From Blastopirellula marina DSM 3645 (GTDB lineage: Bacteria > Planctomycetota > Planctomycetia > Pirellulales > Pirellulaceae): 64,000 nucleotides of DNA. The notes under the pieces are model-generated. The model saw nothing but the letters and a program-made list of their open reading frames with translations, did not search any database and was not told the origin of the DNA. The translations under genes and the position numbers were made by a program. The stretch is taken from the NCBI RefSeq assembly GCF_000153105.1, contig NZ_CH672376.1, forward strand, positions 3,192,503 to 3,256,502. Direction: 5' to 3'. Below, piece by piece: positions 7,932 to 62,208 of this stretch. Position 1 is the first letter of the stretch. Every line of letters starts with the position of its first letter.

Positions 7932-7971
7932 CGCCGATCGTCGCGGTCGCTTTCTCAGGAATCACGATCCA

Positions 7972-19536: not shown

Positions 19537-19578
19537 GGATCCTCTGTAAGTGGAAGAAAATCAGGGAATAGCGCCGCG

Positions 19579-38512: not shown

Positions 38513-38519
38513 GCATCGC

Positions 38520-41739: not shown

Positions 41740-42585
41740 ATGCAGATTGGCGATTGGCGACTTGACCTAGTTTCGGGAGGCGGATTCCTGCACGACGGGG
41801 GAATCCTGTATGGCGTCGTGCCGAAATCGATCTGGCGAACCATTACTCCTGCCGATGAACAAAACCGCGTTCCCTTGGCGATGAATTGCGTCTTGGCGCG
41901 CAGCGCATCTTACACGGTGCTCATCGACGCCGGGCACGGTGAAAAAATGTCTCCGTTGGATCGCAAGTCGCATAGTCTGGAGCCAGGTTGGCCGCTGCTG
42001 ACGGACCTCGCGGCGCTCGGCGTCGCTCCGGACGATATCGATATCGTTATTCTTAGTCACCTGCACTGGGATCATGCCGGAGGCGCGACGACCCGGCTCG
42101 AGGGGAGAATCGCGGCGACCTTTCCCTCGGCTACTTACTTTATTCAGCAGTCAGAGTGGGACGACGCGAATTCAAATACGCTCGAACTTTCGGGCGGGTA
42201 TCACGGAGATGACTTTCTTCCCCTGGCCGCCGAGGGACGCTTGATGTTGGTCGAAGGGAACCAGGAAATTGTCCCGGATGTTCGAGTCATTCAAACCGGG
42301 GGACATACCCGCGGGCATCAAGCGATCGAAATCGCTTCGCGGGGCGAGGGTTTGATGTTTCTAGGGGACGTCGCGCCGACGGTCGCACACATACGCCGGA
42401 TGTGGTGCACGTCGTATGACCTCGATTTGGTCCAATCTCGACGCGTGAAATACGACCTTTTCGGGCATGCGGCGGACCGCGATTATTGGGTCGTCTGGAA
42501 TCATGATCGGTACAACCCGATCAGCCGAATCGAACGGCATCCTCGTCGCGAGTATATCCCGGCGGACATCCGCGAAAAACTCTAA
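41740..42585 (+). CDS. Metallo-beta-lactamase-fold hydrolase
   Basis: A 281-residue protein without signal peptide. The zinc motif HLHWDH occupies residues 107-112 (SHLHWDHAGG), with further ligand candidates in QTGGHTRGHQ and MFLGDVAPT. This is the quorum-quenching lactonase/glyoxalase II-like branch, which hydrolyses lactones, thioesters or esters. It lies on the same strand just upstream of the synthase operon, separated by about 410 bases, so it could release thioesters or act on its product, but a separate function is equally possible. Confidence 0.85.
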   Translation: MQIGDWRLDLVSGGGFLHDGGILYGVVPKSIWRTITPADEQNRVPLAMNCVLARSASYTVLIDAGHGEKMSPLDRKSHSLEPGWPLLTDLAALGVAPDDIDIVILSHLHWDHAGGATTRLEGRIAATFPSATYFIQQSEWDDANSNTLELSGGYHGDDFLPLAAEGRLMLVEGNQEIVPDVRVIQTGGHTRGHQAIEIASRGEGLMFLGDVAPTVAHIRRMWCTSYDLDLVQSRRVKYDLFGHAADRDYWVVWNHDRYNPISRIERHPRREYIPADIREKL

Positions 42586-42999: not shown

Positions 43000-45900
43000 A
43001 TGACAATCTCGACTGATCGAACCGATATTCCGGTGGCGATTGTCGGCATGGCGTGCCGTCTCCCCGGCGCCGCCAACTTGAACGAATATTGGCAACTGAT
43101 CTCCGAGGGGCGATCGGCCGTAGGCGAAGTCCCGGCGGATCGTTTGAATCGTGAGCTCTATTACCATCCGGACAAGGGCGTCCGCGGAAAGACTTACTCG
43201 ACCAAAGCTGCGGTGCTGTCAGATCGCACGTTCCATCGTGACCGCTGCCCGCTGCCGCAGGACTTGATTGACTCGGTCGATAACACGCATCTTTTGATGA
43301 CGGAAACGGCGGCCGAAGCATTCCGTCATGCCGGTTACGATCCTTTCCAACTCAAGGATCGAAACTGTTCCGTCTTCATTGGCCATGCGCAAGGAAGCTC
43401 GCGCCTCGGCGAACTGACGTTTCGCGCGTACGTCGACGAAGCGGTCGCGTTGCTGGAACAAACCCCCGAGTTCCAAGATTTGGCGCCCGCCGAGCGCCAA
43501 GCCGTCGAGCAGCAATTGCTGCAAGATCTATTGGCCACCATTCCAGAAGGCGCCGAAGGGTTCCGCTATCTCAACTGCAACATGGTCGCCGGCACCGTCG
43601 CCAAAGCGTTTGGTCTGAACGGCTCGTGGTTGGCGTTGAACTCGGCTTGCGCCTCCTCGTTGCACGCGATGCTGATGGGCGCCCGAGCGCTGCAGCGCGG
43701 CCGCGCGGATATGGTTGTGGTCGGCGGAGCGTCGGACTGTAAGTCCGATTCGCTGGTCCTCTTCTCGAACGCGCAAACGCTGACAAAGGATGATAGTCGT
43801 CCCTTTGACTCCGGCGCCGATGGCCTGATCATGTCGGAAGGCTACGTCGCGCTGGTCATGAAGACGCTGGAGCGAGCGATCGCAGACGGCGACCAAATTC
43901 AAGCCGTCGTCCGCGGTTTGGGCGTAGCGACCGACGGACGCGGCAAAAGTTTGTGGGCGCCCCGCAAAGAAGGGCAAATGCGAGCAATGCGCCGCGCGTA
44001 TCGCAGCGGCGTTGACGTTTCTCGACTCCAGTACTTGGAATGTCACGCGACGGCGACCCAGTTGGGCGACGCTACCGAGTTGGAAACGCTGCGCGAAGTG
44101 CTGGAGCCAAACTTTCCGAAGGGGAAGAAAATCCCCATCACCAGCGCCAAGGCCAACATTGGGCATGCGCTGGAAGCGGCAGGCGTCGCCGGGATGATCA
44201 AGACGATCCTCTGCATGCAGCATCAGCAATTTCCGGCCGCAATCAATATCAAAGAGCTGAATACGAAGGTGCCGTGGAACGAGTCTCCCTTCTTCGTGCC
44301 GATGCAACCGGCTCCGTGGAGTGCGCCCGCCGATGGCGGACCGCGTTGCGCAGCGGTGAATGCATTTGGAATCGGCGGCTTGAACATGCACGTGGTGATC
44401 GACGAGTATGTCGGTCAGACGTCCGAGCAGATTACCGGCGGTCCGCGTCCGGTTGCCGAAACAGCGGACGATCGCGCTATCGCGATTATCGGCCTGGGCT
44501 GCATCGCACCAGGCGCCGCTGAAATCAACGCGTTCTGGGAAACATTGCAACAAGGGACCGATCCGAAAATCGAACCTCCAGCCGATCGCTGGTCGCCGCT
44601 GGCGCGCCAAAAGGCGGCCGACAAAGGAATTCAGGTCCTGGGCGGTTTCATAACGGACTACGCGTACGATTGGCGCAAACATAAGGTCCCGCCCAAACAA
44701 GTTCTCGAAGCCGATCCGCTGCAGTTCATGTTTCTTGACGCGAGCGAACAAGCGCTGGCCGACGCCGGCTACGATCGCGAATCGATCCAGCGCGAACTGT
44801 GCGGCGTTGTCATCGGAACCGAATTTGGAGGCGATTTTGGCGACCAGTTAGAAATGGGTCTGCGTCTCCCCGAAATGCAGGCGAAGCTGACCACGTTACT
44901 GCAAGCACGCGGACTCGCCGCCGAGAAGATCGAAGCGATCAATCAAGATTTCGCCAATGTCTTGCTGAAAAAATGGCCGGCCCTGGTCGACGAGACCGGC
45001 AGTTTTACCAGCAGCACGCTCGCTTCGCGAATTAGCAAAACGCTTGACTTGAACGGCGGCGCCGTCGCGATCGATAGCGGCACGACGTCCGGCATGTCAG
45101 GAATTGCGCTGTGCATCGATTCGCTGTTGTCAGGCGACAACGACATGATGATTTGCGCCGCTGGACAGCGTCGCATGGGAATCACCATGTTTGACGGACT
45201 GCGTGAGTCGGGCTTGTTGCATTGCGATGCGGAGCCGAAAAACGTACTCGACGCTGGATACAACGGCGTGGTGCCGAGCGAAGGCGCCGCGGTTGTCGTC
45301 TTGAAGCGACTTTCTGATGCGCGACGTGACGGCGATCGGATTCGCGCCGTAATTCGTGGTCTGGGCGTCGCGACGCATGATTCGCCTGCCGAAGCGATGC
45401 GAATGGCGGTCGAGCGCGCCTCGAAAATAGCCGACATTGCGCCGAGTGAAATTCAGTTCGTCGATATCGAAACGGACGAAAACAACAGTAGCGTCTCGCA
45501 ATCGCTGTCGGCCTTGGCTCACGAGCATACGTCGCCCGATCGCAAGCAGCCGCTCCATCTGACGTCCGGCACCGCGCAGTTCGGACACATGGGAGGCGGC
45601 AGCTCGCTGATCACCGTGCTCAAAGCGGCCCTGGAATCGCAACATCACGAAGTTTCGGCGGCGCGCGAACTTCAACAGTCGACCGCCGCATTTAACGGTT
45701 CGACCGCCAGCGTCCAGACGGCGACCGTCAACGTGAAATTGGGGGGCCGTGGAGTAGGCGCCGTCGCCAGCTGGTCGAAGGGACAAGCTTTCTACCTAAT
45801 GCTGGATGACGGCTCGGTCGCGCCGCCTAAGGCGATCGTTCAAGCAAGCACGCCGTCAACAGCCGAGCCGGTTCAAGCCGCACGAATCGTGCGCTTGGGC

Positions 45901-48900
45901 GCCGCTTCGCTGTCCGAGCTGAAGAACATGGTCAACGTCGCACTTGCGGATGCGGACAGCACGTTTGACCAGGCGGAAGCAAAAACATTTACTCCTAGCG
46001 ACAAGATTCGGTTAGCGATCGTCGCCGACAGTGTGCCGGCGCTGACCAAGAAGCTGATGATGGCATTGCCGCAACTGGGCAATTCCGCTTCGCGTCAGGT
46101 ACTAGAACAACAAGGGATCTTCTGTCGCGAACCGCTCGCTGCAATACCGCGTATTGCGTTTTTGTTTCCGGGCCAGGGATCGCAGTACGAAGGAATGTTG
46201 CGCGATCTGGTCCGCCAGTCGCCGGCTGCGGCTCAAATGATGTCAGAAGCGGACGCTGCGATGCGACGACTGGGCTATCCGATTTTTGCGGACTTGGCCT
46301 GGAACGCGCCGACGCAGCTTGGCGCCGACGTTTGGAAGACGCAGATCGCGATGCTATTGGCCGATCTGATCTGCCTGGCGGCCCTTTCGGAACGCGGCGT
46401 GAAACCGGATGTCGTGCTGGGACACAGCTACGGCGAGTTCCCCGCTTTGTACGCCGCAGGCGTTTGGAACCTGGACGCGGTCATTCGTATGACGCGGGCA
46501 CGCTGCGATGGAATCAACGCGACTTCGCTGAACAACGCCGGACTGTTGGCCACGACCGCTCCGCCAGAAGAGATCAAGCAGGTGATCGCCGCTTGCGGCT
46601 GCCAGGCCTATCTGGCCAACTACAACGCTCCTGATCAGACCGTGATCGGCGGCAAATTGGCGGCGCTGGAGCAGTTGTCCAATGCGCTGGCGGCCAAGTC
46701 GTATCCCACGCGAATCTTGGCGGTTCCGGCGGCGTTTCACACGCCGTTGATGGCCGGATCAAGCCGGATGCTGCAACAGGCGCTCGAAACGGCCGACATG
46801 CGAACGCCGCAAACGCCGTTTATCAGCACCGTTGATAACAACCTGACGGAAGATCCAGTCCGAATCCGTCGCAATCTGGGCGTGCAACTGACGACTCCTG
46901 TCAAATATGCCCCCTTGATTGAACAACTAGCGTTGGAGACGCCGACGATTTTTGTCGAGGTCGGCCCCCAACAAACGCTCACAAAACTGAACCGCCGGAT
47001 CCTTTCCGGCGATGCGACAGTGATTGCTTCCGATAATCCCAAGCATGGCGGCATCGAGCCCATTTTGTGCGTCGAAGCGCTGCTGGAATGCCTAGGAGTG
47101 AGAGCTCCCGTTGTCAGCACGCCGAAGCCTGTCCCCGCCAAGACGGCGACCGAGACGCGTGCGACGTTTACGGCTCCGCAACCGGCCGCTGCGGCTGTTG
47201 TTTCCCAACCCATAACTTCTTCGACGGACCGCGCGCCAGTTAAGCCGCAGCCTGTCGCTTCCTCCCGTAGTTCGATTAGCACCAACGAGAAGAACCAGAT
47301 GGACGATATTCCGCACTTTGACGCTACAGAGCGTCGTCGCGCGAAGATGCGTGGTTCTGCCCAGGCTTCGCCGCCTGCGGCATCGCCGCCGACTCCGGCT
47401 CCGGCCGTGGTCACGCCTCCCGCGCCGGCGCCGGTCGCAGCGCCAATTGTTCCGAGACCGACGTTTGCCGCCCCGCCAGCGCCTGTTGCGGTTCAACCGC
47501 CTGCACCGCAGCCAGCGCCGCCGACTCCGCCCCCTGCCCCGGTTGCGCCGGCGCCTGTGTCCGCTGCTGCGAGCAGCAAGAGCGAAGGGGTCGACCTGGA
47601 GAAATTCCTCGTCAACTTTGTGGTCGAGCAAACCGGATATCCGCCGGAAGTGGTCGATCTCGACGCTGATATGGAAGCCGATCTCGGTATCGACAGCATT
47701 AAGAAAGCCCAGCTGTTTGGTGAGCTGCAGGAATACTTCGACATCAGCACGTCGGCCACCGACTTGTCGCTGGATGACTTCCCGACGCTGCGTCACGTCA
47801 TGGACTTCCTCTCGGCCAGCGGACAAGGAAGCACTGCTCCGGCGGCGCCTACTCCAGTCGTTGCCCCGCCGCAACCGGTTGCTCCGGTCGCCGCCGCTGA
47901 GCCGGTCGCTGCTGCGTCTGATACGAGCCCGGCCGAGTTGGAATCATTTTTGGTCAACTTTGTGGTCGAGCAAACCGGTTATCCGCCGGAAGTGGTCGAC
48001 ATGGACGCGGATCTCGAAGCCGACTTGGGCATCGACAGCATCAAGAAGGCGCAGTTGTTTGGCGAGTTGCAGGAATACTTCGACATCAGCACGTCGGCCA
48101 CCGACATGTCGTTGGATGACTTCCCGACGCTGCGTCACGTTTTGAACTTCCTCTCGGCTAGCGGTCAAGCCAGCGAAAGCTCTGCGGCTGCTCCGGTCGC
48201 AACGCCGGCTGCGGTTTCGCCTCCGCCTATGGCGGAAACGCCTGCTGCGACGGGAACGAGCCCGGCCGAGCTGGAATCGTTTTTGGTCAACTTTGTGGTC
48301 GAGCAAACCGGTTATCCGCCGGAAGTGGTCGACATGGACGCGGATCTCGAAGCCGACTTGGGCATCGACAGCATCAAGAAGGCGCAGTTGTTTGGCGAGT
48401 TACAGGAATACTTCGACATCAGCACGTCGGCCACCGACATGTCGTTGGATGACTTCCCGACGCTGCGTCACGTCTTGAACTTCCTCGCGGGCAACGCATC
48501 TGCCGCGACCGAGGAACCAGCATCTTTTTCCCTGGCCGCTCCGGCGCCGGCTCTGGAAACTAAAGACAACGCGCCGGCCGCAGCTAGCAGCACTAATGGT
48601 GCTGCCGCTACGGAACTCAATGGTAAGAATTTGGATTTTGGCGCTGCAGCGCCCCTGACCCTCGTCGGCACGCCGTACGAAATGGGCTGGCGGCACGGCA
48701 GTCAATATCGCGCAGAGATTCGTCGCGTACTCCGCACCTATGCGGAGTACGTTGGCGAGTCGATTGACGAGCTCCCTGGTTCCGCTCACACGGCTCAGGC
48801 GTTGCAACTGCTGACGCCTGATCAATTGGATGAACTGCAAGGAATCGCTGACGCAATTGAGACACCGCTTAGCAATGTACTCGCTCATCACTTTGCGGTC

Positions 48901-51900
48901 GCAGAAACGCTGACCGGCATGGAGCAAGCCGCTTCGACTGGCCAGTCCGAAGGTTCGCTGTTGCACGCCGCTCAATTTGGCTCGCCGGTGATCAACCCGA
49001 TGCGCGAGACGATTCGGTTGGCGACGTTTTTGCGAAGGCCGACCAACGGCTTGTCGCACGTGGTGGTTGCTCCGATCGGCACGATGTTGGTGTTGGGGGG
49101 CGTGAACGCTGCAGGTTTGACTTTCAGCGGTGAGAACCATTCAGCTTATGTATTACAAAACGGCGTAGATCTGGAAGCCGCGATTGATCTGACGCTGCAT
49201 TCGCCCGCCGCAGCAGGCAATGTGGTTCTCGGCGATCTCCATGGTGGTCGTCTGGCCAGCGTTCAGTCGCACGGGCAACAACGGCAAGTCATCAGCGATC
49301 AACCGTCCATTCACTGCGGCAAGCGTCAGATGGCGCTCGCTGGCGGTGCTTCGCTGACCGAACAAGATGTCGATTCGAGCGAAGTCGCGAATCTGCTGCT
49401 GTCAGCCGATAGTGACGCTCTCGCCTTCTTGATCGATTTTGGATCGGGACAATTGTCTCTGAAGAAATCGACCACATCGCGATCGATGGAGCATTTCTCG
49501 CTCAACGGATTGTTTGCCGACGCCAACATTACGGCGCCGGCAGTTCGGCAGAAAGGTGCAGCGACTCCGCTGGCGCAGCCGCACGTCACCGCTCGTTTTG
49601 AGCTGGAAATGTGCGATTCGCCGCTATCCGCATCGTCGATGACGCCTGTTTTCCATGGCGCCGCAATCGTGCTGGGCGATGGAGAAACTGCCGCTGCACT
49701 GATCGAACAGCTGCAACAAGCGAGCGTTACGGTTTATCAAATCGCGGACGCATCCAATTTGGAGAGCGCCGTCGCGCAGGTTGAATCGATCTGTGCCGCC
49801 GGCCCTGCGCCGCACCTGTTTGTAACGACGGCGCGCGATGATCGCGCGAATCTGCGGTTTTCCGTCGAGTCGGCCTGGAACGCTCAGCAACAATCGTCCA
49901 TGGAAACGCCGCTGTTCGTTTGCCAGAAATGGCTATCTTTGGCGGATGCCGGTGGTTGGCTTGAGAATACGACGGTTGTCGCCGTGACCGCACTGGGCGG
50001 CGACTTCGGCTTCAGCCGCGGAGCGACGGCGGTTCAGGGGGGCGCTTTGACCGGGTTGATGAAAGCGATCTTCATCGAATACACCGTGATGCGCGGCGGC
50101 AAAGGCCCCCGCGTCAAAGCGTTCGATACCTGTTCGCAAGAATCACCGTGTCAGATCGCCTGCAACATCTTTGTCGAACTCGCTTCGGGCAATCAAGATT
50201 ACGAGGTTTCCTACACCGGCGGAGTGCGCCGGGTTCCGTTTGCGATGGACCGTCCTGCTGCGACCAAGGCTGCCGCCCAATTGCCGCAAGGAGTTTGGGT
50301 CGTTACCGGCGGCGCTCGCGGCATCACGGCGGCGTGTGCGTTGGAATTAGGGAAACGGTACGGCCTGAAACTGCATTTGATTGGCTCTAGCGAATTGCCG
50401 GCGATTGATCCCGCCTGGCGACAGTTGGATGAAGCGGGTCTGCAAAAACTGAAGGCCGAGACGATGATCGCGGCCCGCAATGCAGGCCAACAAGCGCCGC
50501 AAGCGTGGGAGCGGGTGCAGAAAAGCTTGGAGATCGACAAATCGCTACGCGCGTTTGTCGACAGCGGCGTTTCGGCCACGTACCATGCTTGCGATGTTTC
50601 GGATCGCGCCGCATTGGCGGTCGTGTTGGAAGAAATTCGCCGCGTCGATGGACCGATTTCCGGCATCTTGCATGGCGCCGGCATCGACAAATCTTGCCGA
50701 ATGGAAAAGAAACGTCGCGATGTCGTGCAGGCGACCATCGGCGTCAAAGATGGCGGCGTCGTCCATCTGGCGGCGCTGACCGAGCGGGATCCGATCCGAC
50801 ATTTCATCGGCTTCGGTTCCATCGCTGGTCGGCTCGGCAGCTTTGGGCAAGCCGACTATTGTCTGGCGAGCGATCTGCTCTGTAAACTGATGAACGCCTA
50901 CCGTCGCACGCGTCCGTGGGTCCGAGCTGTCGGCTTCCACTGGCACGGCTGGGATGAAGTCGGGATGGCGGCTCGCCCTGAAACGAAAAACGTTTTGAAC
51001 GATAAGAGCGCCTTAAAACTGATGCCGCTCGCCGAAGGCGTTGGCCATTTGATTCGCGAGATCGAGGCCGATGTTCCGCGCGGCGAGATTCTGATCACCG
51101 AGCGTCGTCATTGGCAACGTTTTGCCGATGGTTTGGGGATTTTGGCCGAGAGCCGCGCCGAAGCGAAGCCATCCGCAGCGCCGGCCGAACCTGTTTCAAC
51201 CGAGCCGCTGGGGCCAGCGGATGCTGCGGTGGAGTTGAGAACCGAACGATGCGAATTGAAACTGATCGATTCGCCGCTTGCTGCGGGAACACCGACCGCG
51301 CCTACGTTTGATGGGCCAGTTTGGATCTTGGGAGAAAACGCCGACGCGGTCGAACTCGAGCAACGACTGCAACAAGCAGGCGTCGAGGTCTATCGCTTTG
51401 GCGCACGCGCCGACCTGGACGAAACGCTGGCTTGGCTTGATGCGCTGCATCCCGAGAAACCGGCGAAGCGGCTCTTTTTGATGACCAGTCGTGATGCGTT
51501 GTCAGCCGACTCGCTGTCGGTCGCCGAGATTGATCGCCGTCGTCACGAAGGAATCATTGCTCCCTACTTCATCGCCCAAAATTGGTACAAGCGGCTCCTT
51601 AAGTTTCCGGAAGCAGGTACCGGCGATCTGGTCGCAGCAACTTCGCTGGGGGGAGATTTCGGCTTTGAGTCGACGGTGCAGACGCCTGACGGCGGCGGAG
51701 TCGCCGGCTTTATGAAGTCGCTGCATATTGAAGATTCGCGGCTCGACAATCGCGTCGCACGCTGCAAAGTGATCGACGCTCCGAGCGACGAATCGCCGGC
51801 GACTCTGTTTGACGCGCTGATGCGTGAACTTGCCGCCGATCAGCCGGAAGTTGAAGTGAGCTGGAGCCGCGGCGTTCGTCGTGTGATTCGGCCGATCGGA

Positions 51901-53697: not shown

Positions 53698-54395
53698 TTT
53701 TTTCACCGACCTGGATCGTTCGGTACGTCGCGGATACGCGTCGATTGCCGATCGATCATCAAGACGCTTGGCTGAGCGCCGCAGAAGAGGCCGAACTGGC
53801 GTTTTTCGCGCATGAAAATCGCCGTCGGCAATGGCTGCGCGCACGCTGGATCGCCAAGCGTTTGATCGCCCTGTCGAATGAGTCGGCCGATTTACGGCGG
53901 GTAGAAATATTGTCCCGTTCACCTGTTGGATTGGGGGCAGCGCCGCAGGTTTTTGTGGATGGGCAACCGTCGCAACACCGCATTTCTCTTTCTCATGCGG
54001 GCGACGCCGTATTGGTCGGAATGACGACCGACGCGACGTCCATCGGCGTTGATCTGGCTTGGGACGTTCCGCAAGACAAGCAATTTTCGCGTGCTTGGTT
54101 TAGTGAGCGTGAACAAGCTTGGCTTGCCGAACGTCCGGAGTCGGCTTCCCTGTTATGGGGACTGAAAGAAGCGATTTTCAAATCACAGGGAGACAGCCAG
54201 GCCTGGAACCCGCGAAGCGTAGAAATCGAATCGTATTGCGATCGAGAAGTTCGTTGCTCGTTGTTTGGACGCCGACTCGCTCCCCTCTCGACGTGGATTC
54301 GCACGTCCCCTCGAGGAACCGCGACGGCAGTTTGGCAAGCAATTACTCATGATTCTCCAGTCGCCGCTCGGCAGGAGTTTACTTCATGTTTGTGA
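53694..54395 (+). CDS. 4'-Phosphopantetheinyl transferase (Sfp type)
   Basis: A 233-residue enzyme that attaches the CoA-derived phosphopantetheine arm to carrier proteins, here presumably the three ACPs of the synthase. It shows the Sfp-type motifs: ISLSHAGD (substrate and magnesium region), IGVDLAW (acidic metal site, with Leu-Ala where Val/Ile-Glu is usual) and WGLKEAIFKSQG (the W..KEA..K motif). Its ATG overlaps the stop of the synthase gene (ATGA), so it is coupled to its substrate. The changed residue after GVD deserves a check, but the rest is intact. Confidence 0.93.
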   Translation: MIFSPTWIVRYVADTRRLPIDHQDAWLSAAEEAELAFFAHENRRRQWLRARWIAKRLIALSNESADLRRVEILSRSPVGLGAAPQVFVDGQPSQHRISLSHAGDAVLVGMTTDATSIGVDLAWDVPQDKQFSRAWFSEREQAWLAERPESASLLWGLKEAIFKSQGDSQAWNPRSVEIESYCDREVRCSLFGRRLAPLSTWIRTSPRGTATAVWQAITHDSPVAARQEFTSCL

Positions 54396-55549
54396 GCAAA
54401 GAACACCATCCGCAGGTTTTACCGCGTGAGTCCTATATTGATCCGACGATCTACAAAAAGGAGATTGAAACGATCCTGTTGCCGGCGTGGCATTGCGTCG
54501 CGGTGATGAGCGAATTGCCTCGCAACGGATCTTTTTTAACGTTCGACTTGTTCGAGCGCCCGATTATCCTGTGGCGAAACGAAGATGAGGTCAGCGCCTT
54601 TCTGAACGTTTGCTCGCATCGCTACTCGAAACTGACATGCAAACCGTGCGGAATCGCCGAGCGTTTGCATTGCCAATACCATGGTTGGGAATACGACGAG
54701 ACCGGCAACGTTCGGAAAATTCCAGACGCGAAAACCTTTCGTCCGCTTGCGCACGGAATGCTGGGACTTAAGCGATTTCGAGTGGAGCGCTGCGGCGAAC
54801 TGGTGTTTGTCAATCTGACAGAAGACGGTCCGAGCCTGAAAGAATTTTTAGGGAACAAGTTCGAGCTGTACGAATCCTGGTTTTCGCCAGAGATGCATAC
54901 GGCGATTGTGATGACGCGAAAGATCAACGCCAATTGGAAATGCTTGGTCGAAAACGCACTAGAAAGCTATCACACAACCGAGGTCCATCCGAAGACGTTC
55001 GGCAAGGCGCCGGCCGAGAAGGATTGCACGCATCAGCTGCACGACACTTGGACGTCGCTGTTTGTCGATTACAGTGAGGAACGCTCGTTTCGCGCGATGC
55101 TGGATCGGATCGGGCATTGGATGGTGGGACGTCAGCGGGACGGCTCTTACGAACACATTCTGCATTACCCCAACATCATGATCGCGCGATTATCGCTCTA
55201 TCGTTGGGTCGAATGCGTGGTTCCGGTTTCGCCGGATCAGTCGTTGTCGGTGGTCCGCTTGATGTGCCACATCGGCGAAAAGGGACAGCTGCGGCGATTG
55301 TGGAATCGCGGCTTTATCAGCCGGTGGGCGAATGATTTTCTGACCAAGGTCGGTTCCGAAGACGCCGAAATCCTGCCGCACATTCAAGCCGGGTTGGCGG
55401 CGGCCGATGAGCCGACCGGCGGTTTGATTTCAACACGTGAAGAACGCGTTTTTCATTTTCAAAACTATATCGAGCGTGCGAGCCAAATGACTGGTTCGGA
55501 CGACGTTAGCGAAATACTTCCAATTCGATTTTCAGGGAACGCAACATGA
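54386..55549 (+). CDS. Rieske-type ring-hydroxylating oxygenase, alpha subunit-like
   Basis: A 387-residue oxygenase whose N-terminal Rieske [2Fe-2S] site is complete: C76-x-H78 and C96-x2-H99 in VCSHRYSKL and LHCQYHGWEY. The C-terminal domain carries the mononuclear iron ligands in ENALESYHTTEVH (H196, H201) with a later Asp/Glu in GSEDAEILPHIQAGL. Family members hydroxylate or demethylate aromatic, betaine-like or aliphatic substrates and need a reductase that is not encoded here. It overlaps the end of the transferase gene by ten bases, so it is part of the operon and probably tailors the chain. Confidence 0.92.
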   Translation: MFVSKEHHPQVLPRESYIDPTIYKKEIETILLPAWHCVAVMSELPRNGSFLTFDLFERPIILWRNEDEVSAFLNVCSHRYSKLTCKPCGIAERLHCQYHGWEYDETGNVRKIPDAKTFRPLAHGMLGLKRFRVERCGELVFVNLTEDGPSLKEFLGNKFELYESWFSPEMHTAIVMTRKINANWKCLVENALESYHTTEVHPKTFGKAPAEKDCTHQLHDTWTSLFVDYSEERSFRAMLDRIGHWMVGRQRDGSYEHILHYPNIMIARLSLYRWVECVVPVSPDQSLSVVRLMCHIGEKGQLRRLWNRGFISRWANDFLTKVGSEDAEILPHIQAGLAAADEPTGGLISTREERVFHFQNYIERASQMTGSDDVSEILPIRFSGNAT

Positions 55550-56310
55550 TTAACCTCTCCGGACGTATCGCTTTGGTTACCGGAAGTTCGCGCGGAATGG
55601 GGCGAGCTTCCGCATTGCGACTTGCCGAAGCAGGCTGCGACGTCATCGTTAACTACGTCACGTCACGTACCGCCGCGATGGAAACGGCCAAGGAAATTCG
55701 CGCGATGGGACGACGTTCGTTTGTCGTCAAAGCGGATGTGAGCAAAAAGGATGACGTCGAATCGATGATGGAGTACATCAGCGAACATATTCAACAATTG
55801 GACATCATCGTCAGCAATGCGGCGACCGGCGGTTTTCGCCCGTTGATGGCGGCGAACGAAAAGCATTTTGAAAACACGTATCACACCAACGTGCTAGCGA
55901 TGCTATTTCTGGTGCAGGCCGGATTGCCGTTGCTTGAAAAAAGCAAAGGCCGCGCGAAAGTGATCGGCATCAGCAGCCATGGCTCGAACATGGCGTTGCC
56001 CTGGTACGGGCTAATCGGCAGCTCGAAAGCGGCGCTCGAAAGCTTGGCGCGCCATCTCACCTTGGAAGTCGGCGACAAAGGGGTGAACGTCAATATCATC
56101 AAGTCGGGCCTGGTCGAAACCGATTCGACCAAACGCCTGCCAGGCGCCGGCGAGATGTTCGACCATCGCAAAGACAAAACGATGATGGGTGACCGCATGC
56201 TGAGCATCGAAGACATTGCGGACGCGGTCTTGTTTCTGGCGTCGCCGTTGTCGGATCTTGTTCAAGGTGAAACGCTCGTCGTTGACGGCGGAGCCGCGGT
56301 TCACGTTTAG
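55546..56310 (+). CDS. FabL-like enoyl-ACP reductase / SDR
   Basis: A 254-residue SDR with cofactor loop TGSSRGMG (12-19) and catalytic Y154-x6-K161 in WYGLIGSSKAAL. The six-residue spacing between Tyr and Lys is that of enoyl reductases (FabI/FabL), not the three-residue spacing of ketoreductases, and stretches such as SNAATGGFRPLM resemble Bacillus FabL. It would reduce enoyl-ACP using NAD(P)H. The synthase has KR and DH but no enoyl reductase, so a trans-acting role is likely, comparable in logic to PfaD. Its ATG overlaps the preceding stop. A plain SDR acting on another substrate is the alternative. Confidence 0.82.
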   Translation: MINLSGRIALVTGSSRGMGRASALRLAEAGCDVIVNYVTSRTAAMETAKEIRAMGRRSFVVKADVSKKDDVESMMEYISEHIQQLDIIVSNAATGGFRPLMAANEKHFENTYHTNVLAMLFLVQAGLPLLEKSKGRAKVIGISSHGSNMALPWYGLIGSSKAALESLARHLTLEVGDKGVNVNIIKSGLVETDSTKRLPGAGEMFDHRKDKTMMGDRMLSIEDIADAVLFLASPLSDLVQGETLVVDGGAAVHV

Positions 56311-56346
56311 TTGATCAGGACGTAATAGCAAAGCAAGATTTTCCGC

Positions 56347-57843
56347 ATGAAGTATCACTTGTTAACCGGCGCGACAGGATTGCTTGGCCGGTACTTGATT
56401 CGCGACCTCACATTGGCCGACGTGCCTTTGGCGGTCGTCGTGCGCCGATCGCGATTTGAGTCGGCGACGCAACGGATTGAGACGGCGATGGCCTATTGGG
56501 AAGCGGAGCTCGGTCGAGCTCTCGTTCGTCCGGTCGTCTTGGAAGGAGATATCACCCAATCCGGCTTGGGACTTTCGGCCGCCGATCAAGCGTGGGTCGC
56601 TGAGAATTGCGACACGATGGTCCACTCGGCCGCATCGCTGACGTTTTACGCCGATAGCGAAGAAGGCGAACCATGGCGCAGCAATATTCTGGGGACGCGT
56701 CATATGCTGGGCCTTTGCCGCGACGCGGGGATTCGCAAATTGCATCATGTTTCGACCGCCTATATTTGCGGAACGCGTCGCGATGTGATCCGCGAAGACG
56801 AAGTTGACGTGGGTCAAGAGCCTAGCAACGACTACGAGTCGAGCAAACTAACCGCTGAGAAGGAAGTTCGCGCCGCCGATTTTCTGGATGTGCTTACCGT
56901 GCATCGTCCTTCCATTATCGTGGGAGACGCCGAGACCGGCTTTACCGTTTCGTACCACGGCTTTTACACGCCGCTACGTTTGGTTCACGCGATGGTGACT
57001 TCGTTGCCTTGGGAGTCGTTCGTTCAATGCGACCTGCTGGGAGCGTTACAGTTGGACGGATCGGAACGAAAGAATCTGGTTCCGGTCGACTGGGTCTCGA
57101 AGGCGATGACCGAGGTGATCGCTCGTCCTGACTTGCATGGCGAGACGTATCATTTCACCAACCCTAAGCCTGCGACGGTAGCCGAAATGTTGGCGGCGCT
57201 TGCATCGATGGTGATGAAGTTGGCTCGTCCGGATGAACCATTCACCGGAAATAAAAATATCTCGGTGGATGAAATTGGGGAGACGTTCCGCGAGCAAATG
57301 GGCGTGTACCAATCGTACTGGAGCGACGACCCTGCGTTTGATTCGACGCGCACCGAGCAAGCGCTGCCCGATTTGCCTTGCCCGGTCGTAGATGACGCGA
57401 TGATGGATCGTTTAATTTCATTCGCCCTAGAAAAGAATTTCGGTTGGCCGCGCGAAGCGACGGCCAAGATTAAGTTTCCGGTCGCTGAAGACTTGGCTCC
57501 TTGGTTGGCTAACGCCAACCAGCTCGCTCAGGAATCCAGCGATCGTCGGTACGTCAGTTTGCAGATTTGCGGCAGCGGCGGTGGGCAATGGCACATGATC
57601 GTAGATCATGGGCGGTTGGTCGGCGTTGGGGCGGGTTTGCAAAACGGCGACAGTCCCACTTGTTATTTAAACAGCGACACATTCACGCGATTGACGCGCG
57701 GAGAGCTGTCTTGGGAAACAGCATTGCAGTCGGGTCGTTTGGTGACGACTGGGCATGCGGCGAGTTCTGAGCAGCTCGCTCGTTGTTTTCACGATCTTGC
57801 CTCTTTGACCCGCTCCGACACCACTAATAACTGCGCCAATTGA
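56347..57843 (+). CDS. Thioester reductase-like extended SDR fused to an SCP2-like domain
   Basis: A 498-residue protein. The first 390 residues form an extended SDR of the NAD_binding_4/thioester reductase type: cofactor loop LTGATGLLGRYLIRD at 6-20, then HVSTAYICG and the YESSK (Y-x3-K) motif. Such domains reduce acyl thioesters to aldehydes or alcohols. From about residue 402 there is an SCP2-like region (YLNSDTFTRLTRGELSWETA and SGRLVTTGH), which binds hydrophobic ligands. The fusion suggests reductive release of a long acyl chain held in the lipid pocket. It begins 36 bases after the FabL-like gene. Confidence 0.8.
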   Translation: MKYHLLTGATGLLGRYLIRDLTLADVPLAVVVRRSRFESATQRIETAMAYWEAELGRALVRPVVLEGDITQSGLGLSAADQAWVAENCDTMVHSAASLTFYADSEEGEPWRSNILGTRHMLGLCRDAGIRKLHHVSTAYICGTRRDVIREDEVDVGQEPSNDYESSKLTAEKEVRAADFLDVLTVHRPSIIVGDAETGFTVSYHGFYTPLRLVHAMVTSLPWESFVQCDLLGALQLDGSERKNLVPVDWVSKAMTEVIARPDLHGETYHFTNPKPATVAEMLAALASMVMKLARPDEPFTGNKNISVDEIGETFREQMGVYQSYWSDDPAFDSTRTEQALPDLPCPVVDDAMMDRLISFALEKNFGWPREATAKIKFPVAEDLAPWLANANQLAQESSDRRYVSLQICGSGGGQWHMIVDHGRLVGVGAGLQNGDSPTCYLNSDTFTRLTRGELSWETALQSGRLVTTGHAASSEQLARCFHDLASLTRSDTTNNCAN

Positions 57844-57874
57844 AAGACACACAGCAATGAACGGGGGTAACGCC

Positions 57875-59227
57875 ATGACGGGAATGATTTCCAAAGCGGA
57901 TTCAAGCGGAGCGGCTCTTAGTGCGAAAACGCTGGAACGCGGTCGCAAGAGCATCGCGGGCGGCGATAGCAGCACGATGCGAGTTCTGCCTTATCACATT
58001 CCTCTCGTCGCAGACCGCGGCGAAGGAAGTCGTCTGTGGGATATCGACGGCAACGAGTACATCGACTTGAACATGGCCTATGGCCCGCTGCTGTTGGGCC
58101 ATCGGCCCAAGCAAGTGATCGAAGCCGTGTATCGTCAGATTTCGGAACGAGGGAGCCAGCTTGGCTTTCCGACCGAAGTGACGATTCGGGTCGCCGAAAA
58201 GTTGAAGCAATTGTTTCCGTGCATCGAACTGCTGCGATTCGCCAATTCGGGGACCGAAGCCTGCGCCTCGGCGATTCGTTTGGCTCGGACCTACACCGGC
58301 AAACGCAAGCTGATCATGTTTGAAGGTCACTATCACGGTTGGAGCGAAGCGGTCTTCACCAAGTACCACGCTCCGCTGGAGATGTTGCCAGAGTGCGGTT
58401 ATGGGCCGGCGATCCCCGGCACTACCGGCATGACCGACGCATTGGATGACGTGATCACTTGCCAATGGAACGATCTCGACGCGCTGCAGCGCTGTTTGGA
58501 AGAGCACGGCGACGAAGCGGCGGCGATCATCATGGAGCCGATCTCGGGCAACGCCGGTTTGTTGCTTCCGCGCGACGGTTACTTGGCCACGGCGCGCGAA
58601 ATGATCCATGATCGCGGCGGTCTGTTGATCTTCGACGAGGTGATCACCGGCATGCGCGTCGCTGCGGGCGGCGCCCAAGAGCACTATCTCGTTTCGCCCG
58701 ATATCACCGTCGTCTCGAAGGCGATGGGCGGCGGCTATCCGGTTGGATCGTTTGGCGCTTCGGCGGAGATCATGAGCTGCATCACCAACGGCCCGCTGTT
58801 CCACGGCGGCGTCTTCTCAGGAAATGCAGTGGTGATGTCGGCTGCCGAAGCGGTGCTCGACACCGTTCTCGCCGACAAAGACAACATTTACGCCAACTTG
58901 CATGCTCTCGGCAATCAATTGGCCGGCGGTATCGACGATATTTACAATCGTCTTGGCGTTCCGCACCATGTTCATCACCTGGGCCCGTTATTGGCCGGTC
59001 TGATCACCAAGACCGACGTCGAAGGACTGTACAACTACCGCGATGTTCGACGTCATTGCGACTTTGAACGCTACATCCAGTTCCAACACCAGATGCAGCG
59101 CAGCGGAGTTTATTTCCATCCGAACGAATTTGAACCGATGTTCCTGTCAACCGCTCATACTTCAGCCGACATCGATGAGGTTTTGGAGCGTTGGGAAGAT
59201 GGAGCCCGACAGTGTCTGGTCCGGTAA
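57875..59227 (+). CDS. Class III PLP aminotransferase (glutamate-1-semialdehyde aminomutase-like)
   Basis: 450 residues from the ATG at 57875, which has GGGGG eight bases upstream; an ATG six codons earlier is the alternative. Fold type I signatures are present: SGTEA and HYHGW for phosphate and pyridine binding, LIFDEVITG with the conserved Asp, and the Schiff-base Lys282 in VVSKAMGGGYPVGSFG. The closest familiar relatives are HemL-like enzymes. In this operon it follows a putative thioester reductase, so converting a released aldehyde to an amine is the likeliest job. It overlaps the ligase gene. Confidence 0.9.
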   Translation: MTGMISKADSSGAALSAKTLERGRKSIAGGDSSTMRVLPYHIPLVADRGEGSRLWDIDGNEYIDLNMAYGPLLLGHRPKQVIEAVYRQISERGSQLGFPTEVTIRVAEKLKQLFPCIELLRFANSGTEACASAIRLARTYTGKRKLIMFEGHYHGWSEAVFTKYHAPLEMLPECGYGPAIPGTTGMTDALDDVITCQWNDLDALQRCLEEHGDEAAAIIMEPISGNAGLLLPRDGYLATAREMIHDRGGLLIFDEVITGMRVAAGGAQEHYLVSPDITVVSKAMGGGYPVGSFGASAEIMSCITNGPLFHGGVFSGNAVVMSAAEAVLDTVLADKDNIYANLHALGNQLAGGIDDIYNRLGVPHHVHHLGPLLAGLITKTDVEGLYNYRDVRRHCDFERYIQFQHQMQRSGVYFHPNEFEPMFLSTAHTSADIDEVLERWEDGARQCLVR

Positions 59228-60693
59228 CTTCCGACACGATTTGGAGTGCGGCGCCAATCTTGGATGCTGTCGAGAACTATCGCGGCAGCATTATCGATCT
59301 TGATGCGCAGCGCGTCATTTCGGCGGACGAACTTGCCCGCGCTCGCGTGGCCTTGATCGGCGAGTTTCGCCGTCAAGGTCTGGCTTCCGGCGACCGCGTC
59401 CTGGTGACGATTGGCAATGGGCCTCTCTTTCCGGCGGCGTTAGCGGCGCTGTTGGCTTGTGAGGCCTCGCCGTTGCTGGTGCATGTGATGACTCCGCCGG
59501 CCGAGTTGGCTCGCTATTCCAAACGCTTCGGCGTGAAGTGGATCGCCAGTTTTGGGGGCGATCCGCACGTTTCGACGGTCCTGTCACGCCAACAGCAGTT
59601 GCAGCCGCTCGACGGTTGGAATCTGCTGTGGGGCGCGTTTGCGGATCCGACAAGCGTCCCTGGTCCAGAGCTGCGGGGAGTCCCGCTTCATCCAACCTCG
59701 GGTTCGACAGGCCTGCCGAAGATCGCACTTCGGCCTGGCTTTGCGGCGATGGAGGAAGCGCGGCACTATGCCGAGACGATGGCGATTTGCGAAGATGATT
59801 GCCTCTTCGCGATTCCGCCGATGAGCCATGCGTATGGTTATGGATTGACGGTGATGACGCCGCTGCTTTCCGGCGCCAGCATCGTGACGACCGCCAATTT
59901 CAGCATGAAAAAGCTGGCAGACGTCCTGCGCGACTATCCGGTGACCCTGCTGCCGATGGTCCCGGCGCATATTGACATGTTGCTGTTTGGCGGAATGATT
60001 GATTTTGGTCGGTTGCGTTGGCTGTTAACCGCCGGATCGATGATGCCGCGTCGCTCGGCGGTGCAGTTTCGCAAGAAGACAGGCGTCACCGTTTGTCCTC
60101 TTTATGGAACGACCGAAACCGGCGGAATTTCGGTCGCGACGACTGCCGACGGACAAGATGTCGATGGTCGCGTTGGCCCTGCGATGAACGGCGTCAAAGT
60201 TTGCGTTCGTCCGCCGGCGGATGCCGAGGATCAGGGACTAGAGCCCGGCGTTGGCAAGCTGCACATTCAAAGCAGCTCGATGATGGCCGGCTATCTGGAT
60301 GAGCAGGACGCGATCCTTCATCCGTGGGATGCGGACGGTTGGTTTGAGACCGGCGATCTCGCGAGAATCGCCGGCGACGCCGTGATTCATTTGCGGGGTC
60401 GTACCGGTGAAATGATTAATGTCTTGGGACTAAAAGTGGTCCCTTGCGAAGTCGAAGAAACGATCGCCGCGATGCCCGGGGTCCGAGAAGTCAAAGTTTA
60501 CGGCAGTCGCTTGGCCTCTCAAGCCGAGATCGTCAAAGCTGCGATCGCGGTTGAGCCCGGCGTGGATGAGTTGGCCATTCGAGCGTATTGCGAAGAGCAT
60601 TTGGTTTACTACAAACGCCCGCAGGCGATCGCATTGGTCGACGCATTGCCGCGTTCGCCCGCCGGTAAAATCGTGCGCGATCGACTTCCTTAG
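59212..60693 (+). CDS. AMP-dependent acyl/aryl-CoA ligase-like adenylating enzyme
   Basis: About 493 residues from the GTG at 59212, which has GGAGC in front and overlaps the preceding stop by 16 bases; the frame reaches 59191. Adenylation motifs: PTSGSTGLPKIALRPG (P-loop), LYGTTETGG, GWFETGDLARI and PAGKIVRDRL with the catalytic Lys. It activates a carboxylic acid as acyl-AMP and passes it to CoA or a carrier. The substrate class cannot be read from sequence; no carrier domain is fused. It probably supplies either a starter or the acyl partner of the condensation protein that follows. Confidence 0.88.
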   Translation: MSGPVTSDTIWSAAPILDAVENYRGSIIDLDAQRVISADELARARVALIGEFRRQGLASGDRVLVTIGNGPLFPAALAALLACEASPLLVHVMTPPAELARYSKRFGVKWIASFGGDPHVSTVLSRQQQLQPLDGWNLLWGAFADPTSVPGPELRGVPLHPTSGSTGLPKIALRPGFAAMEEARHYAETMAICEDDCLFAIPPMSHAYGYGLTVMTPLLSGASIVTTANFSMKKLADVLRDYPVTLLPMVPAHIDMLLFGGMIDFGRLRWLLTAGSMMPRRSAVQFRKKTGVTVCPLYGTTETGGISVATTADGQDVDGRVGPAMNGVKVCVRPPADAEDQGLEPGVGKLHIQSSSMMAGYLDEQDAILHPWDADGWFETGDLARIAGDAVIHLRGRTGEMINVLGLKVVPCEVEETIAAMPGVREVKVYGSRLASQAEIVKAAIAVEPGVDELAIRAYCEEHLVYYKRPQAIALVDALPRSPAGKIVRDRLP

Positions 60694-60722
60694 TGATAGG
60701 CCTAACCGCCGGGAGCTTGCCG

Positions 60723-62114
60723 ATGTCGCAAGTCGCTGACGTTTCGCAAACGGAGTTCAACGCATCGTTGAACAAACTATTTCCTCTGCCGCTTTCTCCG
60801 GTAGAGAAGTTCATGTTCGCCGATGGTCGGGCGCAATACCCGATGATGTGCGACGCCGAGGCGCGCTTTCAAGGGACCATCGAGCGGGGACCCTTTGAGG
60901 AAGCGCTGGAGTTCGCACTGAGCCGCGCTCCGATCTTTCGCAGCGTCATTGAACACGACAAAAAGCGGGGCGACGTCTGGCGCCTGACCGACCTTCGTCC
61001 CGAAGTTGATTGGAACGACTATGGCGCTGACCATGAAACTTGTTACGACGACCTGATCGACCTCCGCCAGAATGTGGGGCTGCGCGTCTACGTGCGCAGC
61101 GGCAGTGAGCGGTCGTCGATCATGTTCCACTTTCATCATGCGTGCGCCGATGGAGTGGGCGCTTTTGCTTTTATCGAAGATTTTCTGGCCGGCTACAACA
61201 ACGCGACGCCGGGAGCCAAACCGGTGACTCCGCGCAAGCTAGAGCCAGGTCGTTTGTTGAATCGTTGCAATTCGGCGTTAGAAAATCCGACCTGGGTGAA
61301 AGGACTGCGAGACGTCGCGAGCGGCGTCGCCAGCGCGTTTCGCTTTTTTGCAGAACGTCCGCTGCCGCTCACCAGCGGATTGCCGACGATAACGACTAAC
61401 GCAACGCGCAAACAAAATGGCTTTGTAACGCAAGAATTGTCGCACGAGACGACGGTCGCACTGCGACGATTTTCGTCGGAGTCCAAGGTGACGCTCAACG
61501 ATTTGCTCTTGCGTGATTTGTTTTTGACGGTGCACGAGCAAATTGAGATGCAGGGTTTTCCAATCCGACGTCGACAACTGCGAGTGTTGATGCCGCAAAA
61601 CTTGCGCGGCCGCGGCGATAGCGCAATGCCGACGACCAATGATGTTGGATTCGCCTTTTTGACGCGCCGCGGCGATCTTTGCAATATGCCCGATGCGCTC
61701 CGCAAATCCTTAGCCTGGGAAACCGGCGCGATTCGCTCGGATCGACTGTCGCGGTACTTCATTGGTGGTCTGGCCGGGATTCAATCGGTCGGAGCACAAC
61801 CTTGGATCGTGAACGGCAAGTTTTGTTTTGCGACCGCCGTGTTGACCAATTTTGGTAATTCCTGGCGGCGTTTCGCCACCAAGTTGCCGGTGGCGAACGG
61901 CGGATTGGTCGCTGGCGACGTCGTCTACGATTGCTTGATAGGCGTGCCTCCGGTTCGTCCCCGCACGGCCGGCGCTTTTAGCGTCACCACGACTGCGGAC
62001 AAAATCTTTTTGACTCTCAAGCAAGATCCGTTCTTCTTCACGCGGGAAGAATCGGAGGACCTGTTGGCTCTTTTCGCTCAAAAAGTGACGCAAACGGCCG
62101 AACTGGCCCGCTAA
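60723..62114 (+). CDS. Stand-alone condensation-domain acyltransferase
   Basis: 463 residues from the ATG at 60723 (GGGAGC upstream); the frame opens at 60693. The HHxxxDG motif of NRPS condensation/CoA-dependent acyltransferases is at 138-144 (HHACADG), and a second-half structure with FATAVLTNFGNSW and a DFGW-like region fits the two-lobed fold. Such free-standing proteins (for example Pap-type acyltransferases) join an acyl thioester to an amine or alcohol. It is the last gene of the operon and would be well placed to acylate an amine made by the aminotransferase. A wax-ester-synthase-like activity is an alternative. Confidence 0.82.
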   Translation: MSQVADVSQTEFNASLNKLFPLPLSPVEKFMFADGRAQYPMMCDAEARFQGTIERGPFEEALEFALSRAPIFRSVIEHDKKRGDVWRLTDLRPEVDWNDYGADHETCYDDLIDLRQNVGLRVYVRSGSERSSIMFHFHHACADGVGAFAFIEDFLAGYNNATPGAKPVTPRKLEPGRLLNRCNSALENPTWVKGLRDVASGVASAFRFFAERPLPLTSGLPTITTNATRKQNGFVTQELSHETTVALRRFSSESKVTLNDLLLRDLFLTVHEQIEMQGFPIRRRQLRVLMPQNLRGRGDSAMPTTNDVGFAFLTRRGDLCNMPDALRKSLAWETGAIRSDRLSRYFIGGLAGIQSVGAQPWIVNGKFCFATAVLTNFGNSWRRFATKLPVANGGLVAGDVVYDCLIGVPPVRPRTAGAFSVTTTADKIFLTLKQDPFFFTREESEDLLALFAQKVTQTAELAR

Positions 62115-62161: not shown

Positions 62162-62208
62162 GGAATCGATTGCGAGCCACTTTCTCCCGCCTAAAAATTG
62201 CCGACCGT

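Follow-up and report, generated by a model that had tools for sequence, protein, structure and literature searches.

A candidate secondary-lipid pathway in a planctomycete operon built around a one-chain PUFA-like synthase

We report here on an eight-gene set with the spacing of an operon, found in a window of 64,000 nucleotides (the whole stretch of DNA that was analysed) from the planctomycete Blastopirellula marina DSM 3645 (contig NZ_CH672376.1, positions 3,192,503 to 3,256,502), whose genome measures 6.66 Mb in 3 contigs. We propose, as a tentative reading to which we give somewhat less than an even chance, that these genes and their upstream neighbours encode a secondary-lipid pathway of planctomycetes in which a conserved core is joined by an accessory cassette that supplies an activated small acid unit. 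The conserved set probably builds, releases, caps and exports a long-chain lipid, and a three-gene add-on probably supplies and activates the small acid. The eight genes lie on the plus strand between 43000 and 62114, as seen by open reading frame listing, translation and family scans. They encode, in order, a KS-CLF synthase (PKS) resembling those of polyunsaturated fatty acids (PUFA), a phosphopantetheinyl transferase (PPTase), a Rieske oxygenase, a FabL-like short-chain reductase (SDR), a thioester reductase-SCP2 protein (TR), a class III aminotransferase (AMT), an AMP ligase (LIG) and a condensation protein (CON). A metallo-hydrolase (MBL) and an MMPL transporter lie upstream (Table 1). 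Genomes and loci are referred to below by codes beginning with G and L, respectively.

We found that AMT, LIG and MBL are an accessory cassette whose members travel together. Among 397 genomes of the class, AMT (E<=1e-125) is present in 15 and LIG (E<=1e-70) in 16, and all 15 genomes with AMT also have LIG. The CLF segment of the synthase was matched in 190 of these genomes at 1e-20; many of these matches are short or have 27-32% identity, as would be expected of ordinary KS domains. In 20 genomes the match was strong (E<=3.2e-111). Strong CLF matches occur in 14 of the 15 genomes with AMT and in 15 of the 16 with LIG (Fisher test, p = 3e-20 and 4e-22, respectively, with cut-offs chosen after the lists had been seen, with dependence among related genomes, and on the assumption that the CLF, AMT and LIG searches all drew on the same 397 genomes). 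The three genes are contiguous in the order AMT>LIG>MBL in G049, G257, G292, G388 and L158 and inverted in G250; MBL adjoins LIG in all of these and also in L154 and G420. In the window genus, in genus g58 and in G021 the cassette is split around the operon, with MBL first and AMT-LIG near the end.

Each cassette protein resembles characterised enzymes at the level of family. AMT, with K288 in 10/10 rows of the alignment, is 41.1% identical to the solved structure 4zm3 (334 bits) and 38.0% identical to HemL 3k28, and it matches the mycosubtilin aminotransferase 6kfm with 172 bits; 42 family-invariant residues are shared with 4zm3 only and 16 with 3k28 only. Against the HemL model TIGR00713 (362.3 bits, cut-off 527.3) and the subfamily model NF000818 (386.6, cut-off 398) it stays below the cut-off. 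We take 4zm3, whose entry is labelled only 'Aminotransferase', to be PctV, a 3-aminobenzoate synthase. The nearest solved relatives of LIG are FadD13 and 4-coumarate-CoA ligase. MBL keeps HxHxDH and the further metal ligands in 14/14 rows, and it scores 182.9 bits against the YtnP equivalog model, below the cut-off of 425.

AMT accompanies a subtype of the synthase with two KR copies in the loci examined. Among the 33 G loci with a KS-CLF pair, several of which are cut so that gene counts are affected, two KR copies are present in all 14 that bear AMT and in one of the 19 that do not (G411; three of these 19 have cut or split synthases); the exception to the association is G370, in which no synthase was found. 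This tie is what would be expected if AMT acted in trans on the growing chain, placing beta-amino groups in chosen cycles, an explanation that we regard as quite improbable. HemL-related in-chain aminotransferases have been described (PMC3547906, in the part of the text available), and the match to the mycosubtilin enzyme points the same way. However, the window and the mapped loci have AMT as a gene of its own, the protein lies nearer to 4zm3 than to 6kfm, and such a role leaves LIG, MBL and the ammonia-lyase described next unexplained.

In L154 it is an aromatic amino-acid ammonia-lyase (PF00221, 5.2e-156), not AMT, that adjoins LIG (43% identity) and MBL (50%). A lyase 72% identical to that of L154 lies beside TR at a contig end in G420, where it is the only PF00221 match of the genome; the LIG and MBL orthologues of G420 open another contig, and because the genes are split over two contigs we infer the adjacency of lyase, LIG and MBL in this genome. 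L154 and G420 are sisters in the KS-CLF tree (100% SH-aLRT). A PF00221 search of 11 genomes gave matches in G420 and in G250, the latter on another contig than the cluster. One slot by the ligase is thus filled by either of two enzymes, AMT or the lyase, each of which might yield a small (hetero)aromatic or amino acid. Because a lyase can fill the AMT slot beside LIG and MBL, we favour the supply and activation of an acid, as primer or cap, over the amination of an aldehyde. As a separate observation, HutH-like ammonia-lyases with an ASG motif lie beside lipid-synthase clusters at L154:4274-5887 and L097:1-1569.

Amination was the proposal of an earlier note on this DNA, made from the sequence alone, and it remains the main rival: TR would yield an aldehyde, AMT would turn it into a terminal amine, and LIG would activate an acid that CON joins to it as an amide, giving an N-acylated lipid amine like the tails of zeamine or tambjamine. 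We consider it unlikely as a whole. In its favour, TR, AMT, LIG and CON stand in this order in the window genus, in G021 and in the three g58 genomes examined that far; the run CON-AMT-LIG-CON is kept together in G370; and HemL-type enzymes act on an aldehyde. There is also the precedent of TamH, in which a thioester reductase and a transaminase convert C12-ACP to an amine (PMC9594044, from the portion of that paper available). Outside those relatives, however, AMT adjoins LIG and MBL, and its constant company with LIG and the lyase that can fill its slot weaken the amination step. Furthermore, AMT is far from the fatty-aldehyde type of PigE (138.6 bits, cut-off 850), and AMT and TR are separate genes, not a TA-TR fusion. 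The N-acylation step is weakened as well, since CON homologues (28-34% identical) occur in 7 of the 19 G loci without AMT compared with 11 of the 14 with it, three of the latter being cut or at a contig end. As CON homologues are found in loci that lack AMT, an amine is not the general acceptor of CON, and amide formation and O-acylation, on the alcohol or on a hydroxyl of the chain, are equally likely roles.

The acid-supply pathway starts from the gene content, the state of the active sites, the conserved linkage and the lyase in the AMT slot, all of which can be read in the sequences. A proposal in all its chemical steps, in the substrates of AMT and LIG, in chain length and in product, it would run as follows. 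The PPTase encoded beside it would charge the synthase, and the acyltransferase (AT) of the synthase would load malonyl groups. KS-CLF, the ketoreductases (KR) and the dehydratase (DH) would extend the chain iteratively on three acyl carrier domains (ACP), and SDR, acting in trans, would take over from PfaD the reduction of the enoyl intermediates. TR would free the completed chain from the ACP by reducing its thioester, leaving an aldehyde or alcohol; CON would attach a second acyl group to the released chain, and the MMPL protein would export the lipid. The carboxylic acid that LIG activates would come from AMT or, in the sister clade, from the ammonia-lyase; it would be small and probably amino-aromatic or unsaturated. 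MBL would edit or free thioesters or lactones. The small acid unit would then cap the lipid, either as the primer of the synthase or as an acyl group moved by CON. A more specific version, which we hold to be doubtful, is that the one-chain PUFA-like synthase, with a FabL-type enoyl reductase in trans, makes a widespread class of exported, reductively released lipids proper to planctomycetes, one subgroup of which bears an exchangeable aryl or heteroaryl cap or primer, amino-aryl (AMT) or aryl-acrylate (lyase) according to the sister clade.

Several points weigh against this pathway. The lyase passes the cut-off of the histidine-lyase model hutH (548.6 against 539.15 bits), and it has an S-H pair at the position where tyrosine lyases have H-L; on both grounds its product would be urocanate, not a cinnamate. 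G411 has two KRs and MBL, no AMT match and a different ligase, ahead of which lie genes for an FAD oxidoreductase and for a luciferase-like/O-methyltransferase protein. Two KR copies are likewise present in L184 and L198, whose examined stretches contain none of the cassette genes. Cassette and synthase are about 20 kb apart in G292. A 7.9-kb contig of G370 (L243, G370:C298) holds CON-AMT-LIG-CON-MMPL, its LIG frame interrupted by one TGA, and a search of the genome at 1e-40 gave no related KS, so that AMT, LIG and CON can travel together. AMT itself is only 41% identical to 4zm3, and the zeamine and mycosubtilin aminotransferases, which are also HemL-related, have been proposed to act on the chain (PMC3547906, as far as its available text goes).

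The G292 and G370 loci, together with the absence of AMT from 19 of the 33 G loci, also suit an explanation in which the core alone makes a plain long-chain or hydroxy alcohol or a wax-like ester, resembling heterocyst glycolipids or PDIM, and the AMT, LIG and MBL neighbours have another job. We judge this very improbable: outside genomes with a synthase of this kind AMT and LIG hardly occur, and in the window both sit inside the operon, where AMT starts 13 nt after TR and LIG shares 37 nt with AMT and 1 nt with CON.

Table 1. Features of the operon and its upstream neighbours (window positions)
Feature	Position	Strand	Basis
MMPL/HAE3-type RND transporter, divergent from MBL gene	39304..41583	-	PF03176 5.5e-24
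MBL-fold metallo-hydrolase, YtnP-lactonase-like (MBL)	41740..42585	+	PF00753 1.3e-18
Single-chain iterative synthase KS-CLF-AT-ACP3-C45-KR-KR-DH (PKS)	43000..53697	+	3565 aa from ATG 43000
Ketosynthase, C-H-H intact	43030..44427	+	Pfam PF00109/PF02801; motif rows n=34
CLF-like second KS domain, DSGTTSG, nucleophile gone	44467..46011	+	sequence, alignment
Acyltransferase, GHSYG, AFHT	46159..47007	+	PF00698 3.3e-34
Three tandem ACPs, LGIDS	47569..48381	+	PF00550, 3 stretches
C45/Ntn-hydrolase-fold domain, nucleophile Cys missing (modelled stretch)	48604..49659	+	profile, AF2 + Foldseek
First ketoreductase, S + Y present	50182..51141	+	PF08659, 2 stretches in synthase
Second ketoreductase, marks two-KR subtype, S + Y present	51943..52608	+	PF08659
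PS-DH-type dehydratase, HxxxGxxxxP, D	52864..53664	+	PF21089 1e-5 (below cut-off), PF14765 1.9e-5 (above cut-off)
4'-phosphopantetheinyl transferase (PPTase)	53694..54395	+	PF01648 1.5e-9
Rieske non-haem iron oxygenase	54386..55549	+	PF00355, PF00848
FabL-type SDR, core gene	55546..56310	+	3oic FabL 6e-58
Thioester reductase (residues 1 to about 290) + SCP2-type C-terminal domain (TR)	56347..57843	+	PF07993
Class III PLP aminotransferase, 4zm3/HemL-like group (AMT)	57857..59227	+	PF00202
AMP-dependent acyl ligase (LIG)	59191..60693	+	PF00501, PF13193
Condensation / WS-DGAT-superfamily acyltransferase, HHxxxDG (CON)	60693..62114	+	PF00668 3.7e-11, PF03007 4.8e-5

The spacing of the eight genes would fit a single operon. 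Stop-to-start distances are -4 nt for PKS/PPTase, -10 for PPTase/Rieske, -4 for Rieske/SDR and 36 for SDR/TR, and with those given above for TR to CON they range from -37 to 36 nt. The earlier note had listed the same genes in this order and had begun the synthase at 43000; both descriptions hold, the ATG there being the likely start of a frame that is open from TTG 42802 (the start codon of LIG is TTG). Its set of eight genes also stands, and what it overlooked is MBL, which should be counted with the set and whose stop lies 414 nt upstream of the PKS start. As for the same order elsewhere, which it had suggested looking for, we found it in nine other genomes (G001-G003, G021, G073, G084, G088, G106 and G137), the identity, taken piece by piece, being lowest in the PPTase of G021 (35%) and reaching 99% at most. 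The G021 locus is without the Rieske gene, and the stretches examined in G073 and G084 end within the AMT gene, LIG there being placed by a separate LIG search. This recurrence is far above chance.

The next gene downstream, encoding a planctomycete cytochrome protein (PSCyt1/DUF1549), begins at 62170, 55 nt past CON. We considered the PSCyt1/DUF1549 and DUF1501 genes as operon members and rejected them, because close copies (73-89%) adjoin the operon only in three genomes of its own genus; in the g58 loci examined, two of which end before that place, these genes gave no match at 1e-20. A DUF1549-DUF1553 gene paired with DUF1501 occurs twice in the window, at 17083-20955 on the minus strand and from 62170 onward on the plus strand. 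A scan for promoters and terminators added little, with 25 terminator-like signals compared with 26.7 in shuffled sequences and 13 promoter-like signals compared with 6.8.

Next we consider the synthase, whose order of domains, KS-CLF-AT-ACP3-C45-KR-KR-DH, was given correctly in the earlier note, as Pfam matches and motifs confirm, the C45 domain at the level of fold. KS is matched by Pfam in two stretches, the second of which is without the nucleophile cysteine, as expected of a CLF. KS-CLF with tandem ACPs is the arrangement of PUFA synthases; the score against the PfaA model TIGR02813 is 912.7 bits, below the cut-off of 1010.1. The AT is presumably of the malonyl type, as judged from its motif. 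We aligned 31-34 rows per domain, using the best match per locus that covered >=60% of the segment, and read the residues from the 14 commonest variants of each. The C/H/H of KS, the Ser of AT, the Ser and Tyr of KR and the His and Asp of DH are invariant among these, the DH Gly is variable, and one AT variant reads AHSYG. The C45 domain looks to be the sole lost active site among those checked. Across loci, the synthases have one KR, some of them with two DH, or two KRs. A PfaD-type flavin enoyl reductase was absent from the eight operon proteins in family scans, the rest of the genome not having been searched.

The C45 domain itself has no Pfam match in the window; PF03417 is matched by 5 of 17 aligned C45 proteins (best 6.6e-14). 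A profile of the alignment finds the acyl-CoA:6-APA acyltransferase 2x1c at 4e-7 and acid ceramidase at 7e-4, and an AlphaFold2 model (pLDDT 74.7, pTM 0.75) matches 2x1c in Foldseek at 2.6e-14, so that the domain is predicted to have the Ntn-hydrolase fold of the acyl-CoA:6-APA acyltransferase family. Among 23 aligned rows, the nucleophile block GCx(Q/H)FA is found in G118, G229, G115, G171 and G048. The cysteine is kept in these 5 of the 8 rows without AMT and is absent from the window and from 14/14 other AMT-bearing rows. As the nucleophile block of the window holds no cysteine, we rejected a cysteine-nucleophile enzyme there. Judged by the alignments, the domain is real and inherited and is no longer a cysteine-nucleophile enzyme in the AMT-bearing subtype; in the window it is probably structural.

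We found no TR within the 34-40 kb examined around the clusters of G115, G171 and G229 (L113, L111 and L110), where the cysteine is kept, and TR is present in all 15 AMT-bearing rows, where the cysteine is gone. The loss of the cysteine in AMT-bearing clusters and its retention in three clusters in which no TR was found suggest a shift of release chemistry, and our guess is that C45 formerly released the chain. The pathway is not favoured on this point by G048 and G118, which keep both the C45 cysteine and TR, or by G199, which is without either.

TR would release the chain. The protein is nearest, by sequence and by fold, to the R domain of MxaA from myxalamid synthesis (4u7w/4w4t), and it keeps T137/Y163/K167 in 44/44 rows; TR is found at >35% identity in 28 of the 33 G loci, and at 34% in G014. 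The SCP2-type domain of the window protein falls short of the threshold (E 0.013), and 5 of 25 aligned proteins match it (best 5.8e-6); such a domain would fit a hydrophobic product. Together with the synthase domains, TR supports the claim of the earlier note that a PUFA-like iterative synthase here builds a lipid or polyketide that is released reductively.

SDR is probably a trans enoyl reductase, because of its Tyr-x6-Lys signature and its presence in 31 of the 33 G loci, the other two (G014 and G420) ending inside the synthase. Its best solved match is FabL 3oic (199 bits, 6e-58), the next chain scoring 117 bits (5.6e-33). With the spacing taken from the 3oic alignment, Tyr154 is present in 32/33 rows and Lys161 in 33/33. 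The classical Tyr place (157) holds Ile or Val and there is no classical Y-x3-K, and we set aside a classical 3-oxoacyl reductase, which would need a Tyr there. The NCBIfam FabL score of 266 is below the equivalog cut-off of 328. SDR is 91-93% identical to its counterparts in genus g58 (KS: 83-85%) and is among the most conserved genes.

Of the remaining partners, the Rieske oxygenase keeps its Rieske and iron ligands in 16/16 rows, and no reductase partner for it was found among the eight genes of the operon. CON keeps HH and D in 20/20 rows and G in 18/20. The MMPL protein, probably an exporter judging from its family match, reaches 4.5e-38 against TIGR00921, below the cut-off of that model, and is in the same position in its own genus and in genus g58. 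Among the 33 G loci, CON is found in 18, MMPL in 16 and Rieske in 14.

We file the operon as a new version of PUFA-like secondary lipid synthesis, outside the Pfa, zeamine and hgl families, the last being set apart by description. The PfaA-D systems are alike in KS-CLF, AT, tandem LGIDS ACPs, KR, DH and a PPTase of their own. In contrast to them, the window synthase has all domains on one chain, a second KR, a C45 domain, PS-DH matches and a sub-cut-off PfaA score, and its operon has a FabL-type SDR and a thioester reductase and no PfaD domain among its proteins. Two planctomycete types were described by Shulse and Allen, Type I with a pfaBC fusion and Type J with pfaD and KS-MAT-ACP3-KR; the window architecture differs from both as they appear in the accessible text (PMC3098273).

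The zeamine cluster, in the part of its description available (PMC3547906), combines PfaA- and PfaC-like proteins with a free-standing condensation domain, a thioester reductase and a class III aminotransferase related to glutamate-1-semialdehyde aminotransferases, so that the parallel drawn in the earlier note is fair in gene content. Zeamine and fabclavine clusters share with the window a KS-CLF synthase, a HemL-related aminotransferase, a thioester reductase and a stand-alone condensation protein. However, the window aminotransferase is not fused to PfaD, CON keeps HHxxxDG where Zmn19 has PHxxxDG, and a ligase, a metallo-hydrolase, a Rieske oxygenase and an MMPL protein are extra. No multi-domain NRPS, which a zeamine-type cluster would contain, was found among the genes of 39304-62114.

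The hgl islands are described, in the available text, with KS, CLF, AT, ACP, KR, DH, thioester reductase and PPTase (PMC11804610), and the planctomycete Kothea flammea has one hglE-KS cluster by antiSMASH (PMC13190842, also available in part). This domain set is common to the window operon, as compared by description and not by phylogeny; the window differs in its cassette, Rieske oxygenase, C45 domain, MMPL protein and single-chain architecture. Relative to Bacillus FabL, the window SDR is alike in its best solved match and in Y-x6-K, and differs in its sub-cut-off score and in its presumed partnership with a megasynthase. In mycobacterial PDIM and phenolic glycolipid synthesis, a ligase activates an aryl primer, an iterative PKS extends it, a PapA-type acyltransferase of the condensation fold acts, and MmpL exports the product. 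The logic is similar, as compared by description, and the window operon differs by reductive release. In the literature searched, which was without most subscription papers, we found no paper on the operon or its product, and 'planctomycet' is absent from the main text of a 2026 survey of hybrid PUFA-like clusters.

The KS-CLF synthase family is common in planctomycetes. In a collection of named genomes, a CLF profile gave 75 loci (among the best 80 of 100 matches), 73 of them labelled planctomycete and 2 only 'bacterium', a result that leans towards planctomycetes, as the search patterns were built from their sequences. Some of these loci are labelled Candidatus Kuenenia; the one included in the tree is nearly identical to a Planctomycetaceae row and may carry a wrong label. 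TR was matched in 36 of 60 relatives at E<=0.001, some weakly, and the best KS-CLF match in a plasmid collection had 31% identity. Family members include Bythopirellula polymerisocia Pla144, with two KRs and no AMT, and more distantly Stieleria sedimenti and Rhodopirellula strains. Adjoining the Bythopirellula cluster, a luciferase-like monooxygenase is fused to an O-methyltransferase (L133:4682-6916).

A tree made with a quick method from 53 of 98 KS-CLF rows (the window, every one of the 33 G rows and 19 L rows chosen by hand out of 64) places four changes on the AMT label, at least three of them forced by starred branches; seven L loci from genomes already represented by G loci were left out of the locus table. 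A single origin of AMT is not established, since L153 is cut and G411, L154, L155, L159, L162 and G420 are without AMT in their stretch. L153, which ends before the AMT place, and L154 each carry two KRs, and neither shows AMT as far as it was examined. The genome of the window holds a second large PKS frame of 2565 aa (L001, G000:C3 at about 28345, on a 376-kb contig), whose KS is 38% identical to the window KS across part of its length.

Elsewhere in the window, genes for a proteasome-fold (HslV-like) and an AAA (HslU-like) protein overlap into those for an ABC solute-binding protein, permease and ATPase at 35163-39164, an odd pairing, and three large frames have no Pfam match at 1e-6 (465-3215, 7837-10221 and 11170-12822).

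To our knowledge, few planctomycete PKS products are known. Published descriptions, as far as available, give several PKS clusters per planctomycete genome. Since cultured, named species carry members of the synthase family, the lipid can be sought directly. The lyase in the AMT slot beside the same ligase predicts two head or primer groups on one scaffold, and in SDR a reductase of the FabI/FabL type would work in trans for a megasynthase. If the more specific version of the pathway is true, lipids with exchangeable aryl or heteroaryl caps or primers would be a bacterial counterpart of the phenolic glycolipids.

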